Both the position numbers and the translations under genes were made by a program. Below, in pieces: positions 15,618-33,168 of a stretch of DNA of 64,000 nucleotides. The stretch's first letter is position 1, and every line of letters begins with the position of its first letter. The stretch covers positions 124,001 through 188,000 of the forward strand of contig JAPZUC010000002.1 of assembly GCA_027533455.1 (NCBI GenBank), read 5' to 3'. The DNA is from Porphyrobacter sp. Its GTDB lineage: Bacteria; Pseudomonadota; Alphaproteobacteria; Sphingomonadales; Sphingomonadaceae. The notes below the pieces were generated by a model. It ran no database searches. It was not told where the DNA came from and saw nothing but the letters and a program-made list of their open reading frames with translations.

Positions 15618-15657
15618 GGGCTGGCGTGCAGCTTCCCCTTTGTTTACAGGGCCTCGC

Positions 15658-16245
15658 ATGATGGATGCACCGCCCGAACCGCCTGCATTCCTCCAGGGCG
15701 AGCAGGTCATCCGGCAATCGCTGGCGCAGTGCGGGCTCGATCCCGCCGAGCTCACCTACCAGTACGATGAAGACAGCGACCGCTTCTATATCTCCGTCGG
15801 CCCGGCATCGGGGGTCACGACTGATCACTTCCCATGCATTTACGAGGCGGCGGGCTTTGAGCTGTTGTTGTTCGATGGTTCCGATCTGGGCTGGCAATAT
15901 GATGCCTATGTTCGCGAATTGCTCCGCCCGCAGTTGATGGCCGAGACCGAGGGGCGGCTGAAGGCACGTGGACTGTGGGAGGGTTTCCCGGCGCGCGACG
16001 CTTTTGCCTCTTTCGGTGACTATCTGAAGGCGATCGAACTCCATGTCGGCCTAGAGCCCGGAACGTGGCCGAAGGCGAATGGCGATAGCGGGATTACCTT
16101 TAACCCGCCATTCGAGGCACAGACGATCGGCACCTTCGTTGCCTTCGAACAGCAATTGGGCGACCTGATGTTGGCGCTCTGGTACGCGACCGCGCGTGAC
16201 CGCACGACATTCAGCATCATTGGCAACGATAAGATCCGCGAATGA
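15658..16245 (+). CDS. Hypothetical protein
   Basis: ORF MMDAPPEPPAFLQGEQVIRQSLAQCGLDPAELTYQYDEDSDRFYISVGPAS...; no motif recognised. Confidence 0.6.
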   Translation: MMDAPPEPPAFLQGEQVIRQSLAQCGLDPAELTYQYDEDSDRFYISVGPASGVTTDHFPCIYEAAGFELLLFDGSDLGWQYDAYVRELLRPQLMAETEGRLKARGLWEGFPARDAFASFGDYLKAIELHVGLEPGTWPKANGDSGITFNPPFEAQTIGTFVAFEQQLGDLMLALWYATARDRTTFSIIGNDKIRE

Positions 16246-16345
16246 AGCAGCGGGGCCCCGGCTCAAAGGCCGGGGAGACGAAGGTCAATTCATTGGCCCC
16301 TAGCCTTTTCTCGTCGCCCCGGGCTTGACCCGGTGTCCCGCTTTC
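16246..16345. repeat. REP-like palindromic repeat pair in inverted arrangement
   Basis: AAGCAGCGGGGCCCCGGCTCAAAGGCCGGGGAGACGAA ... TCGTCGCCCCGGGCTTGACCCGGTGTCCCGCTTTC; the second unit is a near reverse complement of the first. Confidence 0.75.
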
Positions 16346-16660
16346 TTATCAATCACTTGATGGATCACGAGGCATTGGGCGGCTGGGTCTACATCATGGC
16401 GGATCGTTACCGCGGTATCATGTACGTCGGCGTCACCTCGGACATCGCGGCGCGGGTGAGCCAGCATCGCGGCGGGACGGGATCGGACTTCTGCGCGCGG
16501 TATGGGCTGACACGGCTGGTCTGGGCCGAGCGCTGCGGCTCCATCAACGCCGCCTCGCACACGAAAGCGCGTGAAACGATGGCGGCGCGAGTGGAAATTT
16601 GCGCTGGTCGAAAAGGCCAATCCGGATTGGGATGACCTCTTCGAGCGGCTGCTGGTCTGA
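16333..16660 (+). pseudogene. GIY-YIG nuclease domain protein, frameshifted near the 3' end
   Basis: GGWVYIMADRYRGIMYVGVTSDIAARVSQH is intact GIY-YIG; the expected tail KRWRREWKFALVEKANPDWDDLFERLLV* is present in another frame (stop TGA 16658-16660). Confidence 0.75.
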
Positions 16661-16697
16661 AGAAGCGGGGCCCCGGATCAAGTCCGGGGTGACGGAG
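16661..16697. repeat. REP-like palindromic repeat
   Basis: AGAAGCGGGGCCCCGGATCAAGTCCGGGGTGACGGAG, same family as 16246-16345 and 33081-33168. Confidence 0.75.
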
Positions 16698-17333
16698 TCA
16701 ATCCAGCTTCGGCGGCATCCCCGGTTCGCACTTCGCCATCGCTGCCTGATACGCAGGCCGCTCGCCGATGCGCTTCAGGTAGGCTTGCAGGTTCGGCATG
16801 CCCTCGATGTTCATCCCGCTCATGGCGCGGCTGGTGGTGAGTTGGAAGCCCATCATGATGTCCGCCGTGGTGAGCTGCGATCCCCCGAAATAGTCCGCCT
16901 CGCCGAGCCGCTTTTCGACGATCGCCCACCCTTTCGCCACGCGGTCGGCCACGAACGGCGGGAGCTCGGTTGCGCCCATGAACTGCGCCACCAGCGCCAT
17001 CATGCCGTTGGTCATGAAGGTCGCGTTGGCCCAGTGGTAGTAGAACAGGTGGTCGGCGAAATCGGGGTGATCCACGCCCGGCACTAGCGCCGTGTCGGGC
17101 GCATACTTGGCGATGATGTAATCCATGATCGCGCCGCTTTCGCCCAGCACGAGGTCGCCGTCGGTGATGACCGGCGCGATGCCCATCGGGTGCAGCGCCT
17201 TGTACTCGTCGGGGGCGAGGCGGTTATCTGTGCGGCGATTGTAGAGCTTGAGGTCGTAATCCAGCCCCAGCTCGTCGGCGAGCCAGACGATGCGTTCGGA
17301 TTGCGACAGGCGCAGGTGGTGGATGGTCAGCAT
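16698..17333 (-). CDS. Glutathione S-transferase family protein
   Basis: MLTIHHLRLSQSERIVWLADELGLDYDLKLYNR...ALHPMGIAPVITDGDLVLGESGAIMDYI. Confidence 0.9.
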   Translation of the reverse strand: MLTIHHLRLSQSERIVWLADELGLDYDLKLYNRRTDNRLAPDEYKALHPMGIAPVITDGDLVLGESGAIMDYIIAKYAPDTALVPGVDHPDFADHLFYYHWANATFMTNGMMALVAQFMGATELPPFVADRVAKGWAIVEKRLGEADYFGGSQLTTADIMMGFQLTTSRAMSGMNIEGMPNLQAYLKRIGERPAYQAAMAKCEPGMPPKLD

Positions 17334-33080: not shown

Positions 33081-33168
33081 CTCGTCTCCCCGGCCCCCGA
33101 GCCGGGGCCCCGCTACCTTGATTTGAAAGGAAAGAAGCGGGGCCCCGGGTCAAGCCCGGGAAGACGGC
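33081..33168. repeat. REP-like palindromic repeat pair
   Basis: CTCGTCTCCCCGGCCCCCGAGCCGGGGCCCCGCT ... AAGCGGGGCCCCGGGTCAAGCCCGGGAAGACGG; same family as 16246-16345 and 16661-16697. Confidence 0.75.

Follow-up and report, generated by a model that had tools for sequence, protein, structure and literature searches.

A small cassette of inverted CGTC hairpins and a standalone GIY-YIG nuclease gene, frameshifted in one Porphyrobacter genome and recurrent across phyla

Introduction

Can a small nuclease gene lying between inverted REPs be part of a unit that moves? The question is raised by one locus in the window, which is the whole 64,000-nucleotide stretch of Porphyrobacter sp. DNA that was analysed. 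There, the first-pass annotation had described a GIY-YIG gene among REP-like palindromes, which are of the CGTC type. CGTC REPs are one of the two great REP superfamilies and, unlike the GTAG REPs with their RAYTs, have no known enzyme; they "apparently lack a dedicated transposase" (Di Nocera et al., 2013, PMC3733652). A 2006 superfamily survey groups standalone prokaryotic GIY-YIG proteins with Slx1 (PMC1564403). In the literature searched we found no paper linking GIY-YIG proteins with REPs, although preprints and most subscription papers were outside its scope and an unseen report is possible. The main text of a 2025 REP survey names neither RAYT, transposase nor nuclease.

Results

The window locus holds a frameshifted nuclease gene between inverted REPs

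The features of the locus, and of one further site in the window, are these:

16312 to 16694, plus strand: whole cassette, CGTC...GACG, 383 bp, its left boundary placed by analogy with paralogous copies, in which identity starts at CGTC
16312 to 16347, plus strand (F): left terminal REP, CGTCGCCCCGGGCTTGACCCGGTGTCCCGCTTTCTT, with the CGTC tag outward and the tail CCCGCTTTCTT, aligned to the same REP in the relative L082
16360 to 16660, plus strand: single-domain Slx1-like GIY-YIG nuclease gene (PF01541), frameshifted, compared with L082
16661 to 16694, minus strand (R): right terminal REP, ending in GACG, an inverted copy of the left REP that begins right after the stop codon at 16658-16660
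about 16249 to 16280, minus strand (R): extra REP, ..GCGGGGCCCCGGCTCAAAGGCCGGGGAGACG, adjoining the stop codon of the upstream gene
33083 to 33166: gene-less REP dimer of the cassette type, F...R, 84 bp (CGTCTCCCCGG...AAGACG), with tails as in the cassette
15640 to 16245, plus strand: left neighbour, a 201-aa protein of no family, an anchor for the orthologous locus
16698 to 17333, minus strand: right neighbour, a glutathione S-transferase-like (GST) gene, an anchor, 91-96% identical in relatives

The first-pass description of a GIY-YIG reading frame with an inverted REP pair on its left and a REP on its right held with small corrections, the REP spans given there as 16246-16345 and 16661-16697 being refined to about 16249-16280, 16312-16347 and 16661-16694. 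The natural unit had to be redrawn: only the REPs at 16312 and 16661 bound the cassette. The leftmost REP (16249-16280) is separate from this unit and older, because it is also found in relatives that lack the cassette (G040, G041 and G084). The likeness to a REPtron with a nuclease replacing the Y1 transposase proved an apt analogy.

The gene, with a start ATG at 16360, matched the PF01541 GIY-YIG domain with 30.6 bits, and was additionally found to be broken. Its N-terminal three quarters lie in one frame, which stops at 16635, and the conserved C-terminus, KRWRREWKFALVEKANPDWDDLFERLLV followed by the stop codon, lies in another that runs to 16660; comparison with the intact relative L082 placed a net indel near 16547-16575. 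The window copy could be a pseudogene, or the assembly could be in error there; either is possible. The stem of its left REP is also imperfect. The only GIY-YIG genes in the window genome are uvrC and the cassette gene, and no Y1/RAYT gene (PF01797) was found in that genome.

REP matches with no more than two mismatches numbered 4 in the window against 0.66 expected, a count reached in 1 of 100 shuffles. Pattern searches, from which the genome-wide counts are taken, detected about ten exact hairpins of the window type in the whole 2.88-Mb genome, two of them at the cassette locus. Further dimers of the cassette hairpin type lie elsewhere in this genome besides the one at 33083-33166, which we regard as a non-autonomous form of the cassette type.

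Inverted REPs bracket GIY-YIG genes within the genus

Sixty sampled Erythrobacter genomes of the same genus carried between 0 and 11 PF01541 genes besides UvrC. From these, 62 single-domain loci were picked by domain score and contig room, without inspection of their flanks; the sample consists of best-scoring matches and is not a random draw. The bracket score was the best ungapped inverted match between the 150 nt upstream and the 150 nt downstream of the gene, with a cut-off of 15 or more. This cut-off was reached at 47 of the 62 loci, but in none of 2056 size-matched windows taken from these loci and by none of 654 other genes scored with their own flanks. The window and gene controls rule out both chance and intergenic composition as explanations. 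Across the 101 strong loci of this sample and the cross-phylum sample described below, a stem of at least 6 bp was present in 81 arms, compared with 31 of 710 random 28-mers, and a GTC-type tag opened 73 arms. We consider it very probable that GIY-YIG genes and REPs are associated and that together they form a cassette.

A narrower REP motif search restricted to CCCGG stems gave few matches and was replaced by the inverted-repeat score, which is independent of sequence. Because stems differ from one nuclease subfamily to the next, the CCCGG-only motif would have left the pattern unseen.

The REP also reaches into some of the genes, in that the final codons of the nuclease genes L040, L054, L063 and L108 come from it (ending ..DPGSSPG or ..RLSPG before the stop). 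A YhbQ/UPF0213-like subfamily (L034, L038, L048 and L060) was bracketed by a different repeat, of the CCTTCGACAAGCTCAGGACGAAC type, suggesting that a second hairpin superfamily may have GIY-YIG proteins of its own.

Bracketing recurs in other phyla

Searching named genomes with a profile yielded 80 further loci, from alpha-, beta-, gamma- and deltaproteobacteria, Nitrospira, Nitrospinae, Chloroflexi, CPR and Bacteroidetes MAGs, among others. Bracketing was seen at 54 of these 80 loci, compared with 0 of 1743 windows and 3 of 351 genes. Since the search is biased toward proteins resembling the REP-bracketed query, this proportion is no estimate for all standalone GIY-YIG proteins. One of the three control genes, in L162, was flanked on both sides by copies of a CCGCGTTCGCGGGAATGAC repeat, and L162 is itself a GIY-YIG carrier; the other two were due to a CCGACCGACCGGAATGAC repeat (L151) and to AT-rich sequence (L162). 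High scores were also obtained on plasmids of Azospirillum lipoferum (33) and Novosphingobium aromaticivorans (31), the former reported as CGTC-positive (PMC3733652) and the latter named elsewhere in the literature with CGTC-2 repeats. The Aeromonas caviae locus scored 22, and the GIY-YIG loci of Photobacterium and Planktothrix fell below the bracket cut-off.

Neisseria dRS3 repeats have been classed as CGTC-1 (PMC3733652), which led to the prediction that a Neisseria GIY-YIG gene would lie among dRS3 copies. Accordingly, N. gonorrhoeae NZ_CP119140.1 contains a GIY-YIG gene, 70% identical to the query consensus, amid CGTCATTCCCGCG..CGGGAAT repeats, although the copies nearest to it stand in an inverted arrangement.

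Two details of the records are of separate interest. NZ_CP119140.1, NZ_CP119142.1 and NZ_AP026896.1 are chromosome-sized N. gonorrhoeae or Aeromonas records filed as plasmids in PLSDB, whose incomplete gene table has no entry at the GIY-YIG match in any of them. On a Planktothrix agardhii plasmid (L279), a GIY-YIG gene lies between an MmeI-type restriction gene and the DISARM gene drmA, amid TGTCATTCTGAGTGAAACGAAGAATCT repeats.

Hairpin type follows the nuclease subfamily

Each nuclease subfamily has its own hairpin, whose sequence tracks the subfamily and not the host genome. The E. colymbi nuclease, for example, has TGTCATCCCCGCGAAAGCGGGGAC, another subfamily has CGTCATCCCAGCGAAAGCTGGGATC, and a protein of the M(A)NR(Y/F)RGGMYVGVTSD type is paired with CGTCGCCCCGTGCTTGACACGGGGCTTGGCT in both Erythrobacter (L088, L092) and Novosphingobium. 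Among 33 genus loci, REP distance and protein distance were correlated (Mantel r=0.61, reached in 0 of 2000 permutations). When the comparison was restricted to genomes with several dissimilar nucleases, the REP was closer to that of the nearest foreign protein than to other REPs of its own genome in 12 of 16 cases, with one tie. The CCCAGCG hairpin was present in 13 of 14 genomes with the cognate nuclease, defined by at least 65% identity, and in 16 of 47 without it, with mean copy numbers of 6.8 and 0.7, respectively. This excess remained after REPs at the gene itself were dropped (p=0.0015, without phylogenetic correction).

Cassette sites are empty or otherwise filled in relatives

At the locus between the two anchor genes, the GIY-YIG cassette was found in the window genome only, among the relatives compared: the gap is only ~25 bp in G083, holds one REP in G059, and contains the older REP and gene-less dimers in G040, G084 and G041. 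In E. colymbi and two other genomes, a full cassette lies upstream of a gene resembling aldehyde dehydrogenase; this site is empty in G042, with flanks 92-98% identical, and in many more, and is occupied by differing gene-less dimers in further genomes. The sucCD region has the cassette in four genomes, is empty in G070 and G012, and has other dimers elsewhere. The gene-less dimers at these three loci belong to several families.

Cassettes were also found in multiple copies. G054 has about seven or more copies of 371 bp, and G026 has two at distant sites whose genes are identical except for a one-base indel (dS=0). Identity between two copies in G033 starts exactly at CGTC on the left, and on the right the common sequence extends 10-58 nt beyond GACG in the three copy pairs examined. 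The ends of 90 delimited elements, 336-539 bp long, read YCGTC...GACGR with CGTC or TGTC tags, and no target duplication of 5 bp or more was found in them. At other loci, the whole F...R unit stands between unrelated genes with no flanking homology.

Full cassettes and gene-less dimers of 80-84 bp have the same tails. In G053, a dimer of 182 bp holds an internally deleted GIY-YIG nuclease gene, so dimers can arise as deletion derivatives. In the same context, one G054 site carries only one hairpin, fully palindromic (CGTCATCCCAGCGAAAGCTGGGATGACG), as would be expected if a deletion had run through the 8-bp arm.

The copies in G054 differ in that the shared sequence runs beyond CGTC into a second repeat, "repeat B", with every copy at the same position of it, and the 16-bp core of the left half of repeat B has ten exact or near-exact copies adjoining such elements. 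This argues for copying through flanking homology at least in some cases, and the extension past CGTC fits gene conversion better than clean transposition.

Repeat B (..TCAGCTATCGACCCCGGAACGGAC.. / ..CCACCCA..) is a second Erythrobacter intergenic repeat at a fixed position around many cassettes (L070, L071 and L184-L191 in G054; L072 in G031; L053/L055 in G033). Its role may be that of target, carrier or recombination partner.

The unit is therefore bounded by hairpins, present in multiple copies and patchy in distribution, and its sites are empty or otherwise filled in relatives; gene-less dimers are dispersed in cassette genomes, and at least one of them is an internally deleted cassette. 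That the unit is mobile is, in our judgement, very likely. The first-pass annotation had held that its idea would fail if REPs showed no association with GIY-YIG genes in other genomes, or if the cassette were fixed at this locus in all relatives. Both checks were run, and neither refuted it: in other genomes the association of REPs with single-domain GIY-YIG genes is overwhelming, and fixation of the cassette is contradicted by relatives, in which its gap is empty or holds other REP dimers. Its proposal of a mobile REP/nuclease cassette is supported by these patchy, polymorphic orthologous sites. The further suggestion, that the GIY-YIG protein moves the repeats, fared only in part, with association and mobility shown, and cleavage and movement by the protein inferred.

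The nuclease is conserved and Slx1-like

The nuclease is ~95 aa long, and neither the residues of its GIY-YIG motif nor an R-E-K segment varies between phyla. A median dN/dS of 0.19 was obtained for 58 pairs, and a value of 0.13 between the paralogues L053 and L055, which shows that the nuclease is under purifying selection. A structure model (pLDDT 94.5) was closest to the UPF0213 proteins 1zg2 and 1ywl and to Slx1. Slx1 is a branched-DNA endonuclease. By domain match, conserved residues and fold, intact relatives of the window gene are prokaryotic Slx1-like standalone GIY-YIG proteins, for which structure-specific DNA cleavage is inferred.

The 2006 survey also described an HsdR gene with a GIY-YIG domain "very recently inserted" in it and, in Erythrobacter, a fusion of GIY-YIG and TrmH (PMC1564403). 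L052 is apparently such a TrmH fusion, and its linker, ..LRSGRTDDEPALTSVRPEPVEGQ.., resembles translated repeat DNA by inference, so the HsdR insertion and the TrmH fusion may be cassettes in or next to genes. In-frame GIY-YIG fusions to JAB-like, pseudouridine-synthase-like and TrmH-like proteins were seen at L033, L036, L051 and L052, with linkers that likewise resemble translated repeat DNA (RQAQGERV, VRPEPVEGQ). These four fusions probably represent read-through of cassettes inserted upstream.

Discussion

We interpret the window locus as one decayed copy of a mobile element that is widespread and very small, made of inverted CGTC hairpins and one nuclease gene. It is likely that the nuclease is the mobilising enzyme, by whatever route, although cutting and joining are inferred; cleavage and transposition by the nuclease have not been observed, and are deduced from sequence only. 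In the route that we favour, by a narrow margin and as an inference, the nuclease would recognise the hairpin of its own REP, as an extruded cruciform or a single-stranded hairpin, in the way Slx1 recognises branched DNA; REP hairpins that form on the lagging-strand template, or that extrude as cruciforms, would fit such a preference. It would nick at or near the CGTC tags, and the freed or broken unit would be re-inserted or copied into another intergenic gap without target duplication, its ends joined by host repair enzymes. Gene-less dimers would be mobilised in trans, like MITEs or REPINs. Absence of target duplication is reminiscent of IS200/RAYT chemistry, but GIY-YIG enzymes cut DNA by hydrolysis, and no strand-transfer activity is known for them. 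Because hydrolysis leaves no covalent DNA intermediate, joining would have to be supplied by the host, or else the unit would spread by break-induced copying. The repeat-B flanks shared by the G054 copies, and the shared right flanks that run 10-58 nt beyond GACG, also tell against the favoured route. Re-insertion and copying routes cannot be separated from sequence alone.

The main rival is a homing-like process, in which the nuclease cuts gene-less or empty allelic or ectopic sites, these being REP dimers or repeat B, and repair copies the cassette locus into them. It is favoured by the common repeat-B position of the G054 copies and the ten core copies beside elements, by the weakly similar left flanks of two copies with identical genes, by the absence of target duplication in the 90 elements, and by GIY-YIG being a classical homing nuclease fold (PMC1564403). 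We nevertheless think it unlikely, since elsewhere the whole F...R unit stands between unrelated genes without flanking homology, gene-less dimers of several families occupy the same gaps, and the dispersal of the dimers themselves is left unexplained. Less likely still, the gene might be a passenger, or a maintenance nuclease of host type that resolves cruciforms formed by REPs or processes their hairpins in RNA, with the dimers spread by another enzyme. The Slx1-like fold, the persistence of some cassettes at one locus over several species, and the roles in DNA repair and RNA metabolism proposed in 2006 (PMC1564403) suit this view. Against it, gene copy number varies from 0 to 11 between relatives, subfamily-specific hairpins would not be expected for a passenger, and the cassette contains no other gene, with Y1 transposase absent in most genomes.

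The remaining two explanations are all but excluded. A RAYT or other IS transposase might move the REPs, the GIY-YIG link being a by-product of REPs gathering in intergenic regions; in other bacteria, mobilisation of GTAG-type REPs is attributed to RAYTs (PMC3733652). However, Y1 transposases are absent from 57 of 61 genomes, the authors of that study found no transposase gene flanked by CGTC REPs, and neighbouring genes were never bracketed (0 of 654). With Y1/RAYT genes in only 4 of the 61 genomes, RAYT was rejected as the mobiliser. That three REPs and a small gene stand together by chance is tenable only from the view of a single locus, and is contradicted by the shuffles, the window controls and the gene controls.

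The cassette's closest analogue is the RAYT REPtron with its REPINs, which it resembles in having a nuclease gene inside inverted REPs, gene-less dimers elsewhere, no target duplication and a repeat type specific to the nuclease subfamily. The organisation is parallel, whereas neither the enzyme nor the repeat tag is common to the two: the cassette enzyme is an unrelated Slx1-like GIY-YIG protein without an HUH or Y1-type catalytic Tyr, the tag is CGTC or TGTC in the 90 elements and not GTAG, and the cassette genes are multicopy. With enzyme and tag both different, the cassette is REPtron-like in how it works but falls outside the usual definition of one. Its REPs match the CGTC superfamily in their unpaired CGTC tag, 8-9 bp stem, 4-5 nt loop and frequent inverted dimers. 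That superfamily includes Neisseria dRS3 and Rickettsia RPE-4/RPE-6 (PMC3733652), and the published account differs from ours in that we find a nuclease gene inside CGTC REPs across phyla. As with insertion sequence/MITE pairs, there is an autonomous-looking unit with inverted ends, internally deleted derivatives and polymorphic insertion sites; unlike insertion sequences, the cassette has no DDE, HUH, serine or tyrosine transposase and no target duplication, its ends are hairpins, and it is only ~380 bp long. It shares a GIY-YIG catalytic domain in a selfish element with homing endonucleases (I-TevI type, free-standing or intronic), but lacks a DNA-binding C-terminal domain and an intron, and is bracketed by hairpins at many unrelated sites, although the copies in G054 share a repeat-B context. 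In family and fold, the protein agrees with Slx1-like/UPF0213 standalone GIY-YIG proteins (PMC1564403; 1zg2, 1ywl), which had been seen as mainly vertically inherited repair or RNA enzymes, with no REP link described.

The question of a CGTC REP enzyme was left open by the authors who named these repeats, and there is now a candidate, with a testable hairpin-to-subfamily code. Proteins that carry the annotation "GIY-YIG nuclease family protein", or that have been linked to repair, are recast as part of a mobile element, a view that may also explain odd protein fusions and REP-encoded peptide tails. A ~95-aa nuclease that is probably structure-specific, with an inferred natural hairpin specificity, would be of use to biochemistry. 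A bolder reading, which we can neither favour nor dismiss, is that standalone GIY-YIG proteins are dedicated mobilisers of the whole CGTC-REP superfamily. Structure-specific hydrolytic cutting and host repair would then take the place of a transposase, and the non-autonomous products would include the Neisseria dRS3 and Rickettsia RPE repeats. If true, these hairpin-ended units of ~340-540 bp would form a phylum-spanning class among the smallest autonomous mobile elements known.
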